From IMG/VR virus record IMGVR_UViG_3300032291_000037, positions 1 to 20,339 of that record: a stretch of DNA of 20,339 nt; one strand, given 5' to 3'. The notes under the pieces were generated by a model. It worked only from the letters and a program-made list of their open reading frames with translations. It made no database searches and was not told the origin of the DNA. Made by a program: the position numbers and the translations under genes. Shown piece by piece: positions 5,130 through 20,339 of this stretch. Position 1 is the stretch's first letter, and each line of letters begins with the position of its first letter. The stretch comes from a virus.

Positions 5130-8100
5130 ATGGCATTCGTTGTAAAAGACCGCGTTAAAGTTACGACCACCACCACGGGCACAAGCGACTTCACCCTTGG
5201 GAGCGCTTCGCTTGGGTTCCAAAACTTCTCCGTTATTGGAGACGGTAACGTCACTTATTACGCCGCTGTGGATGCAATCACAGGCGACTGGGAGGTGGGC
5301 ATTGGCACGTACACCACGGCTGGCCCCACGCTTACACGGACAACGATTCTTGAGTCCAGCGCCGGGGGCAGTAAGGTCTCTTTCAGCGCAGGTTCCAAGG
5401 ATGTGTTTGTAACGTACCCAGCAGAGCGTGCGGTTTATTTGGATACGGCAGGGTCTGCTGTAACCGTTTTAGATATTGGCACGCTTGGTGTCAGCACTGC
5501 GAACATTACAACGGCAAACATTACGTCCGGCACGATTTCCACGGCTCCAACCAGCAACACAGATATTGTCAACAAGCAGTACGCTGACGCTATTGCATCC
5601 GGCATTCACTTCCACGAAGCTGTGGAGTTGGCAACTACCGCAGCGCTCCCAGCCAATACCTACAACAACGGGACATCCGGGGTAGGGGCAACGCTTACAG
5701 CAAACGCCAACGGCATTTTGTCTGTGGACTCAACGGTTACTGTTGTCGCAAACCGGGTGCTGGTCAAGAACGAAGCCACGCAAGCAAACAACGGTGTTTA
5801 CACAGTTACGCAGGTTGGCACCGCTGGAACGCCATACATACTGACTCGCGCTACTGACTTTGACACTGTTGGCACAGGGGTTGACCAGATTGACGAGGGC
5901 GACTTCTTCTTGGTAACCAGCGGCACGGCCAACGCCAATACTGCTTGGGTGCAGCAGACTGCGCCTCCGATAACAATTGGCACAACAGCGATTGTTTTCC
6001 AGCAGTTTTCCGCACCTATTACGTACACGGCTGGTACAGGGTTGAGCGAATCCCCAACCTACACATTTAACATAGCCAACACAGGTACACCGGGCACATA
6101 CGGCTCCGCCTCCAACGTCCCCGTGTTTGTCACCAACGCGCAAGGTCAGGTTACCAGCGTCACGAACACAGGCATTGCCATCGCATCTGGGGCGGTCTCT
6201 GGGCTGGCCGCATCGGCCACAACGGACACAACCAACGCATCCAACATCACCTCGGGTACTTTGCCCAGTGGGCGTATCTCGGGTTCCTACACCGGCCTCA
6301 CAGGCACAGGCGCACTGGCCGCAGGCTCGTTGGCTACGGGGTTCACCGCAGTCTCTGCCCCACTGGGTGGCACAGGCCAGACCTCCTATGCTGTGGGTGA
6401 CCTGATCTACGCAGACACCACTACGTCTCTGGCTAAACTGGCCGACGTGGCTGTTGGCAATGCTCTGATTTCCGGCGGTGTTGGCTCGGCCCCAAGCTAC
6501 GGCAAGATCGGTCTGGCAACTCATGTCAGCGGCACCCTGCCGGTAGCCAACGGCGGTACAGGCGTTACGTCTTCTACGGGCACAGGCTCTGTAGTTTTGA
6601 GTGACAGCCCAACTTTGGTTACCCCCGCTCTTGGTACTCCAGCATCCGGCGTGGTGACGAACTTGACAGGCACGGCCTCCATCAACATCAACGGCACTGT
6701 AGGGGCTACTACAGCGTCAACAGGCTCCTTTACGTCCCTCGCCTACAGCACCACGCTGACAGGCGGCACGGGCATCGTCAATCTTGGCAGCGGTCAGTTC
6801 TACAAAGACGCAAGCGGCAATGTGGGGATTGGGACAAGTAGCCCCGCAGCACTGCTTGATATCAACGGCTCATCAGGGTGGGCAGGAGGAACAACAGGAA
6901 ATGTTGCAAACATTAAAGGTGCTAACGCTACGGTAACCCAAGGTGGCAACCTAAGAGTTCTTGCGTCTACTGCGTTTGGTGCTGATATTGGTGGCTCTAT
7001 TGCGCTGGGTGGTCAGTACACAAGCGGATTTTATTTGGACTTTGCTCAAATTTCTGGGCGCAAAGAAAACGCTACTGACAATAACACAGCAGGATATCTA
7101 GCCTTTGCTACAAGAACAAATGGTGGCAATACTACAGAACGTATGCGTATCGACTCCAGTGGCAATGTGGGGATTGGGACGAGTAGTCCAAATGGTTTGC
7201 TTCATGTAAACGGAACTATTAACATTGGGTCGCAAACGCAAAACTCTACATCTACCGCCCTATTGGAAAATAGAGTTACTTCAGACCCATCTACTACGGC
7301 TAGAGCCGCCATTACTTTAGGTACAACAGCTGGCACATCAAGTAGTGATAGTTACATTGCATTTACAACTAATCAATATGGTGTAAGTCGTGCAGAGCGC
7401 ATGCGTATCGATCCCAGCGGTAATGTGGGGATTGGGACGAGCGCCCCCGTAACCAAACTGAATTTAATTGATGCCTTGTCTGGTGGGCAGTTATTGGTTG
7501 CGACCAATCAAACAGATGCAACAGAAAAATACGGCACATTTGGAACTCAGCACTACACAAATGCTGAAGAACCAGCGCTTGGTATGGCGGCTCAATCTAA
7601 TGCGACTGACAACATCATTTTGGTGGGTGGCGCACTTAGTGAGTTTAACGCAGCGACTCAAGTTCGTTTCTATACAGCGGCAAATAACACGACTGTCACT
7701 GGCACAGAGCGCATGCGTATCACCAGTGCTGGTGGCGTGTCGTTTGGTGCTACCGGGACTGCGTACGGAACATCAGGCCAAGTTTTGACTTCTGGGGGAA
7801 ATGTACCGCCTACTTGGACAACTCCCACATCCGCAGTTATCGGTACAACTACACAAGTTGCGTACAACAACGCCGGAACAATGGCTGGCTCTGCCAACCT
7901 GACCTTCAACGGCACCAACTTGACCTGCGGCGGAACCGTTACGGCCAACTCCGATGAGCGCTTGAAGACCAACTGGCGTGATCTGCCTGAGAACTTTGTT
8001 GAACGACTCGCGGATGTCAAACACGGCGTCTATGATCGGACAGACATTGAGGCAACGCAGGTCGGTGTTTCGGCGCAGTCGCTGCAAGCCTTGCTGGAAC

Positions 8101-8234
8101 AGGCTGTTTTGGCTGGTGAGGACGGCACTTTGTCCGTAGCTTACGGCAACGCCGCATTGGTGGCTTGTATTCAATTGGCCCAAAGAGTTGTCGCGTTGGA
8201 GCAAACCGTGGCAAAATTGACTAAAGGTATTTAA
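5130..8234 (+). CDS. Tail fibre protein with C-terminal S74 intramolecular chaperone (self-cleaving)
   Basis: A 1034-residue protein; AAGGA at 5119-5123 supports ATG 5130. Residues 1-110 (MAFVVKDRVKVTTTTTGTSDF ... WEVGIGTYTTAGPTLTRTT) are a tail-attachment N-terminus shared by many aquatic phage fibres. Residues about 158-290 form a beta domain (NRVLVKNEATQANNGVYTV). A long Thr/Ser/Gly-rich shaft follows with GGTG and SPTLVTPALGTP elements. NVGIGTS-x-P turns lie at residues 564, 679 and 765, two preceded by ERMRID. The C-terminus begins SDERLK at S941-K946 and ends with QRVVALEQTVAKL, a short coiled coil. This matches S74 chaperone domains, in which a Ser-Lys dyad cuts just before the Ser after trimer folding. 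The mature fibre would end at residue 940. The receptor is unknown. Confidence 0.93.
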   Translation: MAFVVKDRVKVTTTTTGTSDFTLGSASLGFQNFSVIGDGNVTYYAAVDAITGDWEVGIGTYTTAGPTLTRTTILESSAGGSKVSFSAGSKDVFVTYPAERAVYLDTAGSAVTVLDIGTLGVSTANITTANITSGTISTAPTSNTDIVNKQYADAIASGIHFHEAVELATTAALPANTYNNGTSGVGATLTANANGILSVDSTVTVVANRVLVKNEATQANNGVYTVTQVGTAGTPYILTRATDFDTVGTGVDQIDEGDFFLVTSGTANANTAWVQQTAPPITIGTTAIVFQQFSAPITYTAGTGLSESPTYTFNIANTGTPGTYGSASNVPVFVTNAQGQVTSVTNTGIAIASGAVSGLAASATTDTTNASNITSGTLPSGRISGSYTGLTGTGALAAGSLATGFTAVSAPLGGTGQTSYAVGDLIYADTTTSLAKLADVAVGNALISGGVGSAPSYGKIGLATHVSGTLPVANGGTGVTSSTGTGSVVLSDSPTLVTPALGTPASGVVTNLTGTASININGTVGATTASTGSFTSLAYSTTLTGGTGIVNLGSGQFYKDASGNVGIGTSSPAALLDINGSSGWAGGTTGNVANIKGANATVTQGGNLRVLASTAFGADIGGSIALGGQYTSGFYLDFAQISGRKENATDNNTAGYLAFATRTNGGNTTERMRIDSSGNVGIGTSSPNGLLHVNGTINIGSQTQNSTSTALLENRVTSDPSTTARAAITLGTTAGTSSSDSYIAFTTNQYGVSRAERMRIDPSGNVGIGTSAPVTKLNLIDALSGGQLLVATNQTDATEKYGTFGTQHYTNAEEPALGMAAQSNATDNIILVGGALSEFNAATQVRFYTAANNTTVTGTERMRITSAGGVSFGATGTAYGTSGQVLTSGGNVPPTWTTPTSAVIGTTTQVAYNNAGTMAGSANLTFNGTNLTCGGTVTANSDERLKTNWRDLPENFVERLADVKHGVYDRTDIEATQVGVSAQSLQALLEQAVLAGEDGTLSVAYGNAALVACIQLAQRVVALEQTVAKLTKGI
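6811..7445 (+). repeat. Three dispersed direct repeats in the fibre gene (NVGIGTS units)
   Basis: The sequence AATGTGGGGATTGGGAC occurs at 6819, 7164 and 7422. The second and third copies are each preceded by a near-identical GAGCGCATGCGTATC-like stretch (about 7137 and 7397), and this element recurs without the turn near 7707. Units are about 345 and 258 bases apart. Such repeats are typical of S74-type fibres and could support recombination between fibre modules. Confidence 0.75.
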
Positions 8235-14415: not shown

Positions 14416-16386
14416 ATGAACCAACAATCTGCACAAGGACTCGCTTCGCTTGGTCGCGGACCGGACTCCATGCTGGTCCACATGGCCCCCGGGGAAGTAA
14501 AAAGCCTCCAGCAACTTGCGATGGCTCACGGCGGTTCTCTCACAATCAACCCAGAAACAGGTCTGCCAGAGGCAGGCTTTCTGTCGTCTCTGCTGCCCAT
14601 GCTTATTGGCGGGGGCTTGACCGTCGCTTCTGGGGGCGCTTTATCTCCCCTTATGGCTGGCTTGATAACCGGCGGCGGTTACGGACTGGCTACAGGCAGT
14701 CTGAAAAAAGGTCTAATGGCTGGCTTTGGCGCTTATGGTGGTGCTGGTCTTGGTTCTGCTCTTGCGGGTGCGGGGGCTACACAAGGACTTATAGCCGGAA
14801 ATGCGGCCTCTCAAACGGCTATGGGGAGTGCGGCCAACGCTAAAGATTTGCTATTGGCCCGAGGGGCTGAAACCGCCGCGCCGGGTATGTTTGGAAACGC
14901 AGCAGCTAATTTTAGCAACGCGGGTGCTGGCATTACAGGGCTAGGTTCTGAAGCTGGCCGTAACGCTTTTATGTCCCAAATTGGCGGGGCTAAAGGTTTG
15001 GGTATGGCTGGACTCGCGGCAGCGGCTCCAATGATGATGCAAACAACTACCCAACAGCCAGAGATTAAGTCTGACGCCAATATGGGTCAGCGATATAAGT
15101 TTGATGCCGGAGCGCTGACGCCCACACCTCCCCCTGACGTGCCCGGGTATAACAACCAAGGCCAAAACTTTGGTAAAGAACGGCAGTATTTCAACCCGAT
15201 GTACAGGCCAATTGACAACGACGCGGCTAGAAAGCTATACGGTTTTGCATCCGGCGGGCCAGTAGAAGCCATGTCCGACGCAAATTCAATTGGCATGAAC
15301 ACTGGCTACCCACAGGCCGATATAACTACAGGCGCATACGCAACTCCGTACCAACAACCAATCAGCCGAGATATGCTTCCTTACGCTGGCCAACCGCAAT
15401 TTGCCGAAGGCGGCGAAGTTGACAGCTATACCTACGACCCCGTTACGCAGATGTACACCAAGAAGGGTGGCGAGGGAGCCACGATGGTTTCGCCTGTTGG
15501 TGGTATTTCTGGGGCCAGTGCTGGTGGCGTTGACGCAGTTCAAAGTGGTTGGGACAAAATGAGCGATGCTGAAAAAGCCGCTTATTACGCTGAAAACCCA
15601 ACAATGGCGGGCATTACTCAGTTAGGCCAAAAAGGTTTTGGGCTTACCTCAGCAGGTATGGCCCAAAATTATTTATTCCCAGAATTTGTTGAAAGAATGA
15701 GTACTATAGCGCGTGGATACGACCCAGCCAATCTTTCGTACGGGGGCGGGTCAAGGGCCGAACAAAACGCACTGCAAGCCGCCATGAGCAGTCCGAATAC
15801 AGGGGTGGGTATCCCCGGCGAGTCCGCAGGCATAGGTGAAGGCATTGGCGGTGGAGACATCAGCGGTCAAAGCGAAGGCACTCCTGCGCTGGCCCAAGGC
15901 GGTATCGCTAATCTTGGGGACTACTCCGATGGCGGCAGACTTCTGCGTGGCCCCGGCGATGGCGTAGCGGAACTCCCTGACGGTGCCTTTGTTGTTCCGG
16001 CCAGAATAACCTCGGAGATCGGCAACGGGTCTACCAATGCAGGCGCACAAGAACTGTTTGCAATGGAACAACGACTTTTGGGCAAAAACGCACAGCCTGC
16101 AAATCTCGGTCGTTATTCCGGTGGCGGCAATCTCGTACGAGGCAAAGGCGACGGCGTTTCTGACAGCGTGCCAGCAACCATTGGCAAACGACAGCCAGCG
16201 CGTATTGCTGACGGCGAAACCATAATTTCACCACAAGCGGTTAAAAAACTAGGTAACGGCTCGACTGAGGCTGGTGCTCGTAAGCTGTACGCCATGATGG
16301 ACAGGGTTCAAAAAGCTCGTAAGAAGACAGTGGGTAAAGGCAAGGTAGCAGCTAACAGCCGCTCGGCTAAGTACCTACCCGCATGA
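14416..16386 (+). CDS. Large Gly/Ala-rich virion protein with duplicated C-terminal GxGDGV module (probable internal/ejection protein)
   Basis: A 656-residue protein; AGAGGA at 14404-14409 supports ATG 14416. Residues 13-56 (RGPDSMLVHMAPGEVKSLQQL, AMAHGGSLTINPETGLPEAGF) are a conserved N-terminal module. Residues about 57-215 are Gly/Ala/Leu-rich and hydrophobic, able to form membrane-active helices. The middle is Pro/Tyr/Gln-rich with A-x-G-G-x-V motifs (FASGGPV at 277, FAEGGEV at 329). Residues 499-554 and 563-631 are diverged copies of one module (GG-x-L-x-RG-x-GDGV ... GNGST-x-AGA-x-x-L-x-AM). Similar modules occur at the C-termini of tape-measure and other large virion proteins. It is probably packaged in the capsid or tail and delivered with DNA (inference). 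Confidence 0.75.
   Translation: MNQQSAQGLASLGRGPDSMLVHMAPGEVKSLQQLAMAHGGSLTINPETGLPEAGFLSSLLPMLIGGGLTVASGGALSPLMAGLITGGGYGLATGSLKKGLMAGFGAYGGAGLGSALAGAGATQGLIAGNAASQTAMGSAANAKDLLLARGAETAAPGMFGNAAANFSNAGAGITGLGSEAGRNAFMSQIGGAKGLGMAGLAAAAPMMMQTTTQQPEIKSDANMGQRYKFDAGALTPTPPPDVPGYNNQGQNFGKERQYFNPMYRPIDNDAARKLYGFASGGPVEAMSDANSIGMNTGYPQADITTGAYATPYQQPISRDMLPYAGQPQFAEGGEVDSYTYDPVTQMYTKKGGEGATMVSPVGGISGASAGGVDAVQSGWDKMSDAEKAAYYAENPTMAGITQLGQKGFGLTSAGMAQNYLFPEFVERMSTIARGYDPANLSYGGGSRAEQNALQAAMSSPNTGVGIPGESAGIGEGIGGGDISGQSEGTPALAQGGIANLGDYSDGGRLLRGPGDGVAELPDGAFVVPARITSEIGNGSTNAGAQELFAMEQRLLGKNAQPANLGRYSGGGNLVRGKGDGVSDSVPATIGKRQPARIADGETIISPQAVKKLGNGSTEAGARKLYAMMDRVQKARKKTVGKGKVAANSRSAKYLPA
15910..16308 (+). 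repeat. Tandem diverged duplication of a C-terminal protein module
   Basis: Copy 1 covers about 15910-16077 (56 codons) and copy 2 about 16102-16308 (69 codons). Both contain a GG-x-L-x-RG-x-GDGV start and a GNGST-x-AGA end. Copy 1 lacks the SDSVPA segment present in copy 2, and copy 2 has an extra TIGKRQPA-like insertion before the shared P-A-R-I. Confidence 0.7.
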
Positions 16387-16811
16387 ACATGTTTCTAGTC
16401 CCGATGGGACAGGTGTATGCAACGCTACCCGCGCTGATGCCCCACTTGGAAACTTCGGCGGAATGGACAAAAGGGCGTGCCGGGGTTGATGATCTTGTCA
16501 GGTTTATCGTCAACGGTCAGATGCAGTTGTGGGTGGTTGTGGAAGACAATACGATCTTGGGCCACACCATTACAGAGATTAAGCAGTACCCACAGTGCAA
16601 AATGCTGGTTGTCCAGTACTGCGCTATGGAGATAGGTACTCTGGAGAAGGTAGAAGATCACATGCAGGACTTGGCCGCAAGATTTGCCAAGGATGCAGGT
16701 TGCACTGGGATTGAATTTATTGGGCGTCCGGGGTGGCGCAACACAGCAAATAAGTACGGGTACACAACGCAGAGCGTGACGTATCAGAAGTTTTTTAAGG
16801 ATGAGCTATGA
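16383..16811 (+). CDS. GNAT acetyltransferase-like phage protein
   Basis: A 142-residue protein overlapping the previous stop by 4 bases (ATGA); ATG 16389 is an equally possible start. The order of elements fits a GNAT fold: an N-terminal helix pair (TLPALMPHLETSAEW), VDDLVRFIVNGQMQLWVVVED at about residues 35-55, a beta strand pair (LGHTITEIKQYP; MLVVQYC) and a C-terminal helix plus strand (LAARFAKDAGCTGIEFIGRPGW, then KYGYT). The acetyl-CoA loop Q/R-x-x-G-x-G/A is not clearly present, so catalytic activity is uncertain. This family is regularly encoded beside large ejection proteins in T7-like and aquatic phages, where it may be a virion component rather than a soluble enzyme (inference). 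Confidence 0.7.
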   Translation: MNMFLVPMGQVYATLPALMPHLETSAEWTKGRAGVDDLVRFIVNGQMQLWVVVEDNTILGHTITEIKQYPQCKMLVVQYCAMEIGTLEKVEDHMQDLAARFAKDAGCTGIEFIGRPGWRNTANKYGYTTQSVTYQKFFKDEL

Positions 16812-19129
16812 GCTATTCACGTCGGCAACTTTACGCATTTGGCGAACCCCTTGGAGATTCTGTCACTCGCAAAGAGGGTGGCCGGGTTGTTTATGGTGAT
16901 GGTGGCGGCTCACCTGCTCCATCTTCTTCACAGACTCAAGTTTCTGAACTGCCTGAGTGGGCTAGAGGCTACGCTAAAGACACGCTGGCTAAAGCTGGTG
17001 CCCTTACGGATTTAAGCCAGAACCCATACAAGCCTTACGAAGCCAACCGCATCGCTGGTTTCAGCCCTTTGCAGCAGCAAGCTCAACAGCAAGCCGCCGG
17101 TATGCAGACCTCTGGCCTGACGGGTCTTGGTGGGCAGTTGGCTGGCGCAGCCACGATGGGCGCTCTCGGTTCTCAATACGACCCAACACAGTTCCAAGCA
17201 GGCCAGTTTGGTGGGGACTCCGCACAGCAGTACATGTCTCCGTACATGCAGAATGTGGTCGATATTCAGCAGCGTGAAGCCCAACGCCAAGGCGACATTG
17301 CCGGTACGCAGCTAGCCAGTCAAGCAACCAAGTCCGGTGCTTTTGGTGGGGGCCGTCAGGCCATTATGCAGGCCGAGGCAGCGAGAAATTTAGCTACCCA
17401 AAAAGGCGACATCCAAGCTAGAGGTCTTCAGTCTTCCTACGAGCAGGCGCAAAACCAATTTAATGCAGACCAAGCTCGCCGCATGCAGGCGCAGCAGCTT
17501 TCGGAGCAGTCCAAACAATACGGCGCTGGCTACGGCATGCAGGGTCTCCAGACCGCGCTTCAGGGTGCTGGTCAAATGGGTACGCTCGGTGGTCAGCAGT
17601 TTGCTCAAGGCATGGACATCAACAAGCTCCAGTCAGCTTACGGCGGTCAACAGCAGGCGCTGGAACAACAAGGTCTGTCGCAAGCTTACCAAGACTTCCA
17701 AACCGCGCAGAACTATCCATACAAGCAGTTGGGCTTCATGTCCGACATGATCCGTGGTTTGCCGCTTGGTCAACAGTCCACCTCGCAGATATACGAAGCT
17801 CAACCCGGTATGGCTCAGCAGTTGGGCTCACTCGGCATGGCTGGCTATGGCCTGTCTAAGTTTATGGCCGAAGGCGGTATGGCTTACGCTGGCGGTGGCG
17901 GTGTAGACAGCGCTGAAAATGTAGCCGACATCGTTGGCTCACTGTCTCCAAAACAATTAGAGCAATCTCTGGCAGCAGCCCAAGCCCGTGGGGATACTGA
18001 GCAAATTAGAGCTATCCAAGACGAGATGGGCTTTCAGGCTTCGTTGAAGAACGGCTTGGCCAGTACTGTAACCCCCGATATGGCTGAGCGTATGGCTGGC
18101 GGCGGTGTTGTTGCGTTTGCTCGTGGTGGGTTGCAGGACACGCTAAAAAGTCTTTCCGCTTTGGGCGATAAAGAAATTACAAACACTCCCGAAGAACGGC
18201 AAGCTGGCATTACTGCGGCATTGCCCGGGATAAAAGCTATGTACGGTGAGAGCGCTCTGGCTCCTATAGCCAAAGAAATATCCGCAGAACGTAAAGCGCT
18301 TGATGCTAAAGGTGATATCCCCGCCGAAGCCTATTTTGCCGCAGCCGCAGGTATGTTGAAGGGTCGTGGCCTTGTTGCTGGGCTTGCTAACGCCGGTATT
18401 GAAGGGGGCCAAGCAGCCTCAAAAGCTAAAAAAGAAGCTCGTGAAGCTAGCCGCCTTCTGCGTGCCTCAGAAATTCAACTTGCCACTGCCGACCAGCAAC
18501 GTCAAGACGGACAGATTGCCAAGGCCGAAAACAGCTATGAGAAGGGCAAAGCATCAGCGGAGAAAGCTCTGGAGCGCACAATTGGTGTGAAGGAGAAAAT
18601 TGCTCAGTTGGAAACCACTATCCGGGGTCAAGATGTGCAAGCTGCTACCAGCGCAGCGGCGTCCGCAAAACCGACGGACTTGGACAAGCAGACTAAGATT
18701 CGTTACGCCGCCGCTCTGGAGGCTGGAGAACCCCCTAATGCCGCAACTATGTCTAAGGCTGCTCAACAAGCAGCAAGCGATCTGGGTCGATATCCGGGCG
18801 AAGCACGGGTAGAAGCTGCTGGGGCTAAGCTAGATCAGGGTGTTAGGGAGAAAGCGACTAAGGCCGTGGATGACGTAATTATGATGGACAAAAAGTACAG
18901 GGACTTGCAAAAAACAGATGCCCCTGCTGCTGAAAAATACCGTACTGAGAAAATTTTACGAGAAACAGCCCGCTTGATGGGTGGTTCTGGTGCTCCCGCT
19001 GCCGGTGCTCCCGCTGCCGGTGCTCCCGCTAAGCCGTCTATGCAAGTGTTTATGGACGCGGCGAGAAAAGCTAACCCCGGTGTTTCTGACGCAGATTTGG
19101 CGGCATACTACAACTCCAAGTACAAGTAA
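16808..19129 (+). CDS. Large Gln/Ala-rich virion protein (probable internal/ejection protein)
   Basis: A 773-residue protein; AAGGA at 16797-16801 and a 4-base overlap support ATG 16808. The N-terminus (RRQLYAFGEPLGDSVTRKEGGRVVYGDGGG) resembles a small separate protein of other phages, here fused. Residues about 45-340 are Gln/Gly/Ala-rich and helical, with AIMQAEAARNLATQKGDI and long Q-rich stretches. A-x-G-G motifs lie at 353-367 (MAEGGMAYAGGGGV) and 429-442 (MAGGGVVAFARGGL). Residues about 538-620 are strongly charged and probably coiled coil. An Ala/Pro/Gly repeat at 728-741 precedes a conserved C-terminus (FMDAARKANPGVSDADLAAYYNSKYK). There is no enzymatic motif. It is probably packaged and delivered with the genome (inference). 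Confidence 0.75.
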   Translation: MSYSRRQLYAFGEPLGDSVTRKEGGRVVYGDGGGSPAPSSSQTQVSELPEWARGYAKDTLAKAGALTDLSQNPYKPYEANRIAGFSPLQQQAQQQAAGMQTSGLTGLGGQLAGAATMGALGSQYDPTQFQAGQFGGDSAQQYMSPYMQNVVDIQQREAQRQGDIAGTQLASQATKSGAFGGGRQAIMQAEAARNLATQKGDIQARGLQSSYEQAQNQFNADQARRMQAQQLSEQSKQYGAGYGMQGLQTALQGAGQMGTLGGQQFAQGMDINKLQSAYGGQQQALEQQGLSQAYQDFQTAQNYPYKQLGFMSDMIRGLPLGQQSTSQIYEAQPGMAQQLGSLGMAGYGLSKFMAEGGMAYAGGGGVDSAENVADIVGSLSPKQLEQSLAAAQARGDTEQIRAIQDEMGFQASLKNGLASTVTPDMAERMAGGGVVAFARGGLQDTLKSLSALGDKEITNTPEERQAGITAALPGIKAMYGESALAPIAKEISAERKALDAKGDIPAEAYFAAAAGMLKGRGLVAGLANAGIEGGQAASKAKKEAREASRLLRASEIQLATADQQRQDGQIAKAENSYEKGKASAEKALERTIGVKEKIAQLETTIRGQDVQAATSAAASAKPTDLDKQTKIRYAAALEAGEPPNAATMSKAAQQAASDLGRYPGEARVEAAGAKLDQGVREKATKAVDDVIMMDKKYRDLQKTDAPAAEKYRTEKILRETARLMGGSGAPAAGAPAAGAPAKPSMQVFMDAARKANPGVSDADLAAYYNSKYK
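18989..19030 (+). repeat. 15-bp tandem repeat, 2.8 copies
   Basis: GGTGCTCCCGCTGCC occurs twice (18989-19003, 19004-19018) and a third time in 12 of 15 bases to 19030. It encodes the G-A-P-A-A linker before the C-terminal domain of the 773-aa protein and probably varies in copy number. Confidence 0.85.
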
Positions 19130-19138
19130 GGGTTCCTC

Positions 19139-20339
19139 ATGCCGATCATCGACCCGTTTGAGGCGCAACAACCGCAGCGGAGGGGTATCGTTGATCCCTT
19201 TGCGGCGCAGCCTGTCCTAAATATTGTTGACCCTTTTGTACAAAAAGAAGAACGCCCAGAAGACCAGTCAATCCTGCGAAGCGTAGCGGACGTCCCACTC
19301 AAGATAGGGGCTGGCGCGGTTACCGGCGTACGGCTTATTGCCGACGCATTCGGTGCGGGTAACGAAGTCTCTGAAAACCTCAAAGGGGCGGAAGACTGGA
19401 TTGGTGCGCTCTACAGTGCTCAGTCTAAGAAAGACTCCAAAGAAGTCGCTCGCATTATGAAGGATGCCGAGGACAAAGGCGTGGGCGATCAAATTGCAGC
19501 GGCGCTCAAGGCATTTTCTGTTGCCCCCGTAGACCTCGTTACCAACGCACTTGGCACATCAGCCCCAGCCATCATTGCCGGTCTTGGTGCAACATTGTTC
19601 GGAGCACCCGTGCTTGTGGGTTCAGGTCTAGCTGCCGGTGTCGGTGCGACTATGGGTGCGGGTACAGTCAAAAGCTCCATCTACGACGCGGTCAAAGAAG
19701 AGTTATCCAAAACCAAAATGCCGCCTGAGCAGATAGAAGCTCGCGCTAAGTTGGCCCAAGACTACGATGGTAAAAACCTCGGGCTTATTTTGAGTGGTGC
19801 TGCACTCGGCACTATTGGCGCAACTACTGGTTTTGAACCCGCCGCCGCTCGCCAGCTAGCCAGACAAATTGCTGCTAAAGGGGCGAAATCTGAAGCGGTG
19901 GATATTGCGACTAGAGAAGCCACTGAGTTAGCCGCTAAACGCGGTATTACTAAGCAAGGTGCTTTAACAGGCGCAAAAGAATTTGCTGGCGAAGCCGCCG
20001 AGGGTGGGCAAGAACAATACGCTCAGAACGTAGCTTTGCAACGAGAAGGCTTTGACGTTCCTACTATGCGTGGTGTAGTGGGTGCAGCTACGCTTGAAGG
20101 TACAGCCGGTTTTGGTTTGGGTGCTTTAGGTGGTGGGCGAGAAGCCGCTAGAGCCAAACGAGAACTTGCCGTTGAAGACGCCGCCGCAGAAATAGACAAA
20201 CTTAATAAAGGCACGACTACAACAGTGCGTCCTCCAGCGGCAGAGGGCGAAGCGCCTACTCTGGAAACTGTACCTGCGGAGCCTACTGGTCAGCCGGACC
20301 CAGAGCGCGTTGCTCAACTTAAAACCGTATTTGAAAATA
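19139..20339 (+). CDS. N-terminal part of a probable large internal/ejection virion protein (truncated by window end)
   Basis: Starts at ATG 19139, with AAGGG at 19127-19131 upstream, and stays open to the window end (400 codons). Residues 5-7, 19-21 and 31-33 read DPF within I/V-I/V-DPF motifs, forming a threefold N-terminal repeat. Next comes VPLKIGAGAVTGVRLIADAFGAGNEVSENLKGAEDW, then SAQSKKDSKEVARIMKDAEDKGVGDQIAAALKAFSVAP. Residues about 139-177 and 215-232 are Gly/Ala/Leu-rich and hydrophobic, possibly membrane-active. Residues 267-400 are charged and Ala-rich, ending in a Pro/Glu linker. Proteins starting this way in aquatic phages are, as I recall, very long ejection or 'polyvalent' proteins with several enzymatic domains. 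Those domains would lie beyond the window. Confidence 0.75.
   Translation, partial: MPIIDPFEAQQPQRRGIVDPFAAQPVLNIVDPFVQKEERPEDQSILRSVADVPLKIGAGAVTGVRLIADAFGAGNEVSENLKGAEDWIGALYSAQSKKDSKEVARIMKDAEDKGVGDQIAAALKAFSVAPVDLVTNALGTSAPAIIAGLGATLFGAPVLVGSGLAAGVGATMGAGTVKSSIYDAVKEELSKTKMPPEQIEARAKLAQDYDGKNLGLILSGAALGTIGATTGFEPAAARQLARQIAAKGAKSEAVDIATREATELAAKRGITKQGALTGAKEFAGEAAEGGQEQYAQNVALQREGFDVPTMRGVVGAATLEGTAGFGLGALGGGREAARAKRELAVEDAAAEIDKLNKGTTTTVRPPAAEGEAPTLETVPAEPTGQPDPERVAQLKTVFEN

Follow-up and report, generated by a model that had tools for sequence, protein, structure and literature searches.

The closest described counterparts of the locus analyzed here are the consecutive ejection proteins of phages P22 and T7. 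P22 hybrids carrying the Sf6 gene 16 alone or the Sf6 gene 20 alone yielded no plaque-forming phage, while those with both were functional (PMC10883804). Sf6 gp16 was present in the non-functional P22 particles carrying Sf6 gene 16 alone, and gp20 nonsense mutations deleting the last 33 or 66 residues resulted in non-functional virions (PMC10883804). The authors inferred that a gp16-gp20 interaction is required, and the hybrids, as reported there, show that the two proteins must match. In P22 lacking gp20, gp16 fell from 11.9 to 6.0 copies, and the gp20:gp16 ratio of P22 was given as ~30:12 (PMC4992974). In T7, a "tape" in the N-terminal part of gp16 stitches the C-termini of gp15 (PMC8954989). 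LPD38 and LPD39 were described as domains of polyvalent, co-injected proteins (PMC5512222).

In P22, Sf6, HK620 and CUS-3, an ejection or tunnel gene is followed by the last ejection gene, the same order as in the window, by which we mean the whole stretch of 20,339 bases analyzed here.

The large-protein gene at the end of the window

The right end of the record falls inside the gene of a large protein, of which the 5' part is present (19139-20338, plus strand). The frame starts with ATG and is free of stops for 400 codons, up to the record end. It directly follows the gene of a 773-aa protein (16808-19129, plus strand), a predicted penultimate ejection protein by its match to PHROG 4287 "DNA ejection protein" (E 1.8e-13), and the proposed partner of the large protein. 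The same module holds a structural protein, a tail-fibre-like gene and an endolysin. The tail-fibre-like protein (5130-8234) has a C-terminal Peptidase_S74 intramolecular chaperone (E 1.1e-7). In 10 loci checked, a gene for 357-837 aa ended just ahead of the gene corresponding to the large one; in cyanophage Pam1, a small gene sits between the two.

The first 36 residues of the large protein (19139-19246, plus strand), a putative docking tag, contain three copies of an I/V-DPF motif. These are IIDPF at residues 3-7 (19145-19159), IVDPF at residues 17-21 (19187-19201) and IVDPF at residues 29-33 (19223-19237), all on the plus strand. DPF itself occupies residues 5-7, 19-21 and 31-33 (19151-19159, 19193-19201 and 19229-19237), exactly where the original prediction had placed it. 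The internal repeat was significant (p = 0.01, 300 shuffles), and the proline codons of the three copies were all unlike (CCG, CCC, CCT). A conserved body follows the tag (19247-20338, plus strand), in which two Gly/Ala-rich hydrophobic stretches can be read from the sequence at about residues 141-177 and 213-231 (~19559-19669 and ~19775-19831); from such stretches, the original prediction had suggested a putative membrane insertion. The body had a weak, possibly compositional match to PHROG 2206 (virion RNA polymerase, E 6.8e-4). A Pfam search with the 400-aa piece gave no match, and neither did a comparison with the cultured-phage collection at E 1e-5.

Relatives of the large protein were found in 59 loci from viral contigs. 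The original prediction had suggested that further domains may lie past the window and had allowed for a frame that stops soon after it. The relatives speak against such a stop, as the frame was complete in 49 of the 59 and coded for 1,782-3,497 aa. Further domains were present in all four full-length relatives scanned, with LPD39 in three and LPD38 in one, all over the cut-off; a GNAT domain occurred besides LPD in L021, and L051 had a DNA methyltransferase match. LPD39 was over the cut-off in 15 of 34 records. Among five DPF-tagged proteins found by their tag, it passed in L086, just missed in L074 and was absent from L083, L085 and L091. The near relatives L002 and L007 had LPD39 together with "DarB-like antirestriction" family matches over roughly their C-terminal two fifths. 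L007 also had a virion-RNA-polymerase-family match at residues 649-1050, and its residues 837-1031 were similar to phiKMV-type internal virion proteins (lowest E among the matches listed, 1e-7). Because of the LPD38/LPD39, DarB-like and phiKMV-type matches in its relatives, the window gene most likely codes for the final ejection protein of a short-tailed phage, and its largest. The virion role predicted earlier is thus supported by homology, and by gene order through the PHROG 4287 protein upstream. Five more distant cultured relatives (Mwe-JY07, ZX1, PEp14, POI1126 and phikF77) showed no repeated N-terminal motif by eye.

A repertoire of repeated, exchanged tags

The first ~30-80 residues of the relatives were of many unlike types, most of them built from two or three copies of a short motif. 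The motif types include I/V-DPF, NFFDQFD, WWxxAPL, LDFSKFG, GRDFSAELFG, FSFEEA, LPEGFxLE, GWETIVP, WTPPADAV, GLFDDILEE, FDPDxYL and SPxEWLA, and some tags are small domains (the KYPQY, xPdG and TGEVLFLV types). Judged from these sequences, exchangeable N-terminal tags number about two dozen, the DPF stretch being one of them. Repeats were significant (p ≤ 0.01) in 35 of the 44 non-redundant N-termini, the window included, that remained of 60 (window and relatives) after removal of near-duplicates. The same test was significant for none of the 44 at residues 101-160 of the same proteins and, among 157 N-termini taken from other genes of these loci, for 7.

Recent DNA slippage is not favoured as the source of the repeats, with the same codon used at 149 of 309 identical residues, compared to 116.7 expected from codon usage. 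The tag was also considered as a signal common to several cargoes of one phage. This was rejected: no other gene in the loci checked had at least two motif copies, and in 10 of 11 contigs not even a single copy lay outside the tagged gene (in the eleventh, G011, the contig end cuts the tagged gene).

The shortest tagged protein had 205 aa and the longest exceeded 2,000 aa, the tags also heading much shorter proteins without Pfam matches. For the KYPQY tag, no Pfam family scored above its cut-off, the best PDB match by sequence had an E value of 0.049, and the best by fold (Foldseek, E 4) was no credible relative. The DPF class was found in none of the cultured phages searched, with short queries of limited sensitivity, and was confirmed in no bacterial genome contig.

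Tags were unlike even between bodies at least 90% identical. On a tree of the 330 residues after the tag (49 rows, with L031 and L044 left unassigned by the patterns), the fewest reported tag-label changes numbered 32. L002 (FFDQF) and L003 (WW) were identical in the tree columns used, yet had unlike tags, and the DPF-tagged window adjoins them. DPF and WW tags were found on other first domains as well. One first domain type, NPFTGALGRVASLAG...AVPLSGISEEDI, stands behind three tags (WETIVP, DPF and WW) in L060, L074, L076 and L095, so that the first domains, too, undergo exchange.

When the DNA of near-identical relatives was aligned, the exchanged block was seen to start inside the end of the upstream gene, not at the start codon. 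In the window, the approximate cassette spans the upstream gene end, a 9-base gap and the tag (19000-19240, plus strand); it differs from L002, L003 and L004, with flanks alike. We also considered whether the tag tracks other neighbours, which was not seen in a comparison of the window with L004. These two differ in their tags, yet identity reaches 89-94% in four of the five genes upstream. The fifth, a 656-aa gene (14416-16386) with 63% identity, seems to undergo exchange of its own.

Contigs G023 and G024, 90% identical over 46.7 kb, fail to match over the upstream gene's last 21 residues and the tagged gene's first 51. Their tagged proteins also mismatch at residues 522-1246. The 836-aa and 301-aa genes, by their order probably those of the portal and the major capsid protein, are 97-99% identical although tag and tail are swapped. 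Some further parts of the virion module differ as well, namely a 218-aa gene next to that of 301 aa (44%), a 196-aa gene (42%) and the tail-fibre region.

Matching of tags and upstream C-tails

Tag class and the class of the upstream protein's C-terminal tail match across loci. The DPF tag pairs with the tail type FxxAARKANPGVSDADLxAYYNxKYGK, the WWxxAPL tag with AEFDKLPxGTxFIAPDGTxRxKP, the FFDQFD tag with AxIxALKxNPxLxxxFDxKYGxGAAxxYLG, and the KYPQY tag with a short ending, DPLGxR. In the DPF class, the upstream proteins range from ~360 to 1,100 aa and are quite unlike in sequence, and several different bodies lie downstream. In the window, the tail is formed by the last 31 residues of the 773-aa protein (PSMQVFMDAARKANPGVSDADLAAYYNSKYK, 19034-19126, plus strand), a putative docking domain for which AlphaFold predicted two helices.

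Co-variation was measured on 60 non-redundant loci out of 77. Similarity between tags correlated with similarity between C-tails (Mantel r = 0.852, 0/5,000 permutations). For a control segment of the upstream protein (71-104 residues before its end), r was 0.26 (also 0/5,000 permutations), and therefore relatedness contributes something. Among 160 locus pairs with similar tags, the C-tail was similar in 151 and the control segment in 10; among 1,610 pairs with dissimilar tags, C-tails were similar in 21. All 16 pairs with dissimilar tags but a similar control segment had dissimilar C-tails. Exceptions with similar tags and dissimilar tails were the xPdG loci L042, L048 and L049 and the pair L017/L084. 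The original prediction had named the 773-aa protein as a partner to test, and it is this protein's last ~31 residues that co-vary with the tag. Its reading of the motif as a repeated docking peptide gains strong, indirect support from the co-variation; the motif it described belongs to a set of many tags that can replace one another.

The pairing also had predictive power in new loci, gathered by scans with tag-only alignments. A tail HMM built from four FFDQF discovery loci matched near the upstream C-terminus at 53 of the 58 new loci (by distinct tail, 43 of 47) and at 1 of 150 others, that one (L024) being an FFDQF locus itself. For KYPQY, the first-set motif D[PA]LG was present in the last 25 residues in 62 of 80 loci, three of which were discovery contigs. 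The pattern [DN]P[LFVW][GNKR][ILM], widened only after inspection of the locus list, occurred within the last 15 residues at 75 of the 77 new loci, or in 55 of 57 tails when each distinct one is counted once (0.125 expected after shuffling). Elsewhere, it was found in 0/58 FFDQF, 0/22 DPF and 0/12 WW loci and in 3/39 others, a count consistent with the three KYPQY loci of the discovery set that this group contains. The DPF tail HMM (five discovery tails) recognized 12 of 13 held-out loci, with 1/176 cross-class matches, and the WW tail HMM (four discovery tails) 4 of 4, with 0/185; these held-out loci were already counted in the co-variation set and include near-duplicates (L088/L090, L095/L096). 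Misses thus amounted to 5/58 for FFDQF, 2/77 for KYPQY and 1/13 for DPF. Two new WETIVP loci conformed too, by eye.

Cultured phages showed the same pairing. In the four examined among 34 matching records, the module's last large protein starts with a KYPQY tag, and the upstream genes end with NDPLGIR (BA3 and Vibrio phage 1.183.O), NDPLGLR (Ruegeria phage 45A6) and, with a short extension, NDPLGLRKRKK (HTVC106P). In Ruegeria phage 45A6 (L068, 7434-8855), the annotated gene ahead of the tagged protein lies in another frame than the NDPLGLR-ending one, and there may be an error here in the annotation or in the sequence. The FFDQF tail query returned four cultured records. Pam1, with a single FFDQF copy, and two others fit, FFDQF heading a large downstream gene. 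CRP-171 does not: its gp36 was matched at the N-terminus (E = 2), and the motif was not found upstream. Pam1_16 (L307, 4422-7175), annotated as "mediator of RNA polymerase II", is by tag and position probably the last ejection protein of Pam1.

P22 and its relatives can be sorted in the same way. P22, MG40, APSE-1 and two Vibrio phages (5 of 71 records) share both the gp16 tag type TA[NK]GKxFxFP[DE]GT and the gp20 ending type SG[IV]xFxVE, on gp20 bodies only 20-68% identical. Sf6, HK620 and CUS-3 have another gp16 tag, AKAWKDVxASPQYQAL, and the gp20 ending FSSLWGD. MG40 and Sf6 gp16 were 81% identical beyond residue 60 (over the part of MG40 gp16 compared) and 23% in the tag; in Sf6 and HK620 gp16, the body was 28% and the tag 86% identical, and the gp20 tails followed the tags. 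For HK620 and CUS-3 gp16, our global alignment gave 77% beyond residue 60, compared to a published 26%, and this pair was left out of the argument. By sequence, then, P22/MG40 and Sf6/HK620/CUS-3 form two tag-tail classes, and these agree with the published results on gp16/gp20 hybrids. The gp16 N-tag and the gp20 C-tail would be the putative gp16-gp20 interface of P22.

Docking model, alternatives and known systems

We consider it very probable that tags and tails are motif-domain docking pairs, which join consecutive ejection proteins and are swapped as a single cassette spanning the gene junction. In the window, the DPF repeats would be the peptide half of a matched pair, and the ~31-residue helical C-tail of the 773-aa penultimate ejection protein the other half. 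Two to three motifs per large ejection protein could hold two to three copies of the upstream tunnel protein, and the repeats would give avidity. The paired proteins would act jointly during DNA ejection, in building the transperiplasmic conduit. Coded across the junction of two genes, the pair would be exchanged between phages as one short unit, letting very different large proteins attach to very different tunnel proteins.

Physical contact between tag and tail is what we infer from the sequence relations. AlphaFold models of tail-tag read-through chains showed no docking; in these, the motif peptides had low confidence (pLDDT 47-61) and the domains were folded (block pLDDT 75-91). In the modelled chain of the window, the C-tail formed two helices, 9-19 and 25-37 (block pLDDT 75-88); the KYPQY tag formed four (pLDDT 87-91). 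The alignment for the DPF model came from C-tail rows only, the tag having no alignment depth.

Tag and tail lie within ~250 bases, and the exchanged block covers both. Their adjacency in the DNA alone therefore raises co-inheritance, and adjacent gene ends could be copied together without tag and tail ever touching. This can explain part of the co-inheritance, but neither the matched classes between unrelated flanks, such as those of the DPF class, nor the genetics of P22 and Sf6, in which gp16 and gp20 must match and mismatched Sf6 gp16 is nevertheless present in particles (PMC10883804). A small domain often standing opposite a motif is likewise not accounted for, and we regard linkage as improbable as the sole explanation. 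Alternatively, both tag and tail could be loading signals that bind a portal, scaffold or other virion protein and vary with it. P22 ejection proteins are reported to require scaffold for procapsid entry (PMC8402733), residues 1-16 of N4 gp52 to sit in the lumen of the head-tail adaptor (PMC12633501), and the 218-aa, 196-aa and tail-fibre genes of G023 and G024 do differ. On the other hand, the probable portal and capsid genes of this pair are nearly the same despite the swap, the repeated motif is confined to the tagged gene in the loci checked, and mismatched Sf6 gp16 still enters P22 particles (PMC10883804), so that we find such a third partner very improbable. Least credible of all, and hardly to be expected, is recognition of the tag by an envelope or cytoplasmic protein of the host, with the tag tracking host range. 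The tail-fibre differences between G023 and G024 would suit it, but the KYPQY class spans phages of Thalassomonas, Vibrio, Shewanella, Ruegeria and Pelagibacter, and the matching C-tail would be left unexplained.

Under the docking model, the stage at which matching counts can be narrowed. P22 gp16 enters virions without gp20, and docking is therefore unnecessary for loading. Because loss of gp20 only halves gp16, at a gp20:gp16 ratio favouring gp20, matching probably matters mainly after loading, at conduit formation.

A wider reading, which we hold tentatively and about which we are rather divided, is a plug-and-socket code. It would comprise dozens of mutually exclusive pairs in one pool common to unrelated short-tailed phages, with lock and key reversible, and ~250 moved bases would attach any large cargo to any tunnel. 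The roles seem to occur in both arrangements: in one, the second protein carries the DPF motif and the first a helical C-tail; in the other, the second protein carries the helical KYPQY tag and the first ends with a DP[LF]-type motif. LPxGF motifs occur on either side, as tag or tail. Profile comparison gave 63% for the WW tail and the xPdG tag; with hhalign, homology between the DPF C-tail and the KYPQY tag had a non-significant probability of 12-18%. That DPF/C-tail and KYPQY/DPLG are a single pair type with reversed roles is only suggested, by the likeness of the motifs and the similar helical models. In one KYPQY-tagged locus (L302, upstream of 2567), the upstream gene ends with NDPFKIRKK, a DPF-like variant of DPLG and a possible bridge between the two pair types.

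The docking model addresses how ejection proteins recognize each other, and why they are so mosaic and still functional. Tag-tail pairing would explain which DNA-injection proteins can cooperate, and offers an interface of ~15-35 residues per side that can be tested in P22 and in uncultured phages. It would further provide a rule for finding the partners of unannotated large phage proteins, and a modular means of attaching a cargo protein to the phage ejection machine.

In polyketide synthases, a C-terminal tail docks with the N-terminal tag of the next protein in class-matched pairs, coded at neighbouring gene ends. The function is different there; in the phage pairs, one side is often a motif in two to three copies, and the two sides seem able to exchange roles, unlike in polyketide synthase docking. 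The capsid targeting sequence of T4 is an N-terminal peptide on injected proteins as well, but it sends its cargo to the head core, whereas the P22 data argue for matching that acts after loading. A literature search of titles and abstract openings, with thin coverage of subscription papers, returned no description of the tags or of matched tails. The polyvalent LPD38-LPD39 proteins are of the same kind as the tagged body in the window relatives; in the text available, Iyer et al. 2017 (PMC5512222) describe their domains and their processing by peptidases, but neither repeated motifs at the N-terminus nor matching tails. The T7 tape consists of gp16 residues 157-228 (PMC8954989), unlike the N-terminal tag of the window family. 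Most similar to the window pair are gp20 and gp16 of P22, consecutive ejection proteins that must match and act together, with the C-terminal 33 residues of gp20 being essential; their interface, left unplaced in the available text of that study (PMC10883804), is here put at the gp20 C-tail and the gp16 N-tag and extended to many unrelated pairs. An interaction between consecutive ejection proteins is thus already known from T7 or inferred for P22, and a many-typed, exchangeable docking cassette across a gene junction appears to be new.
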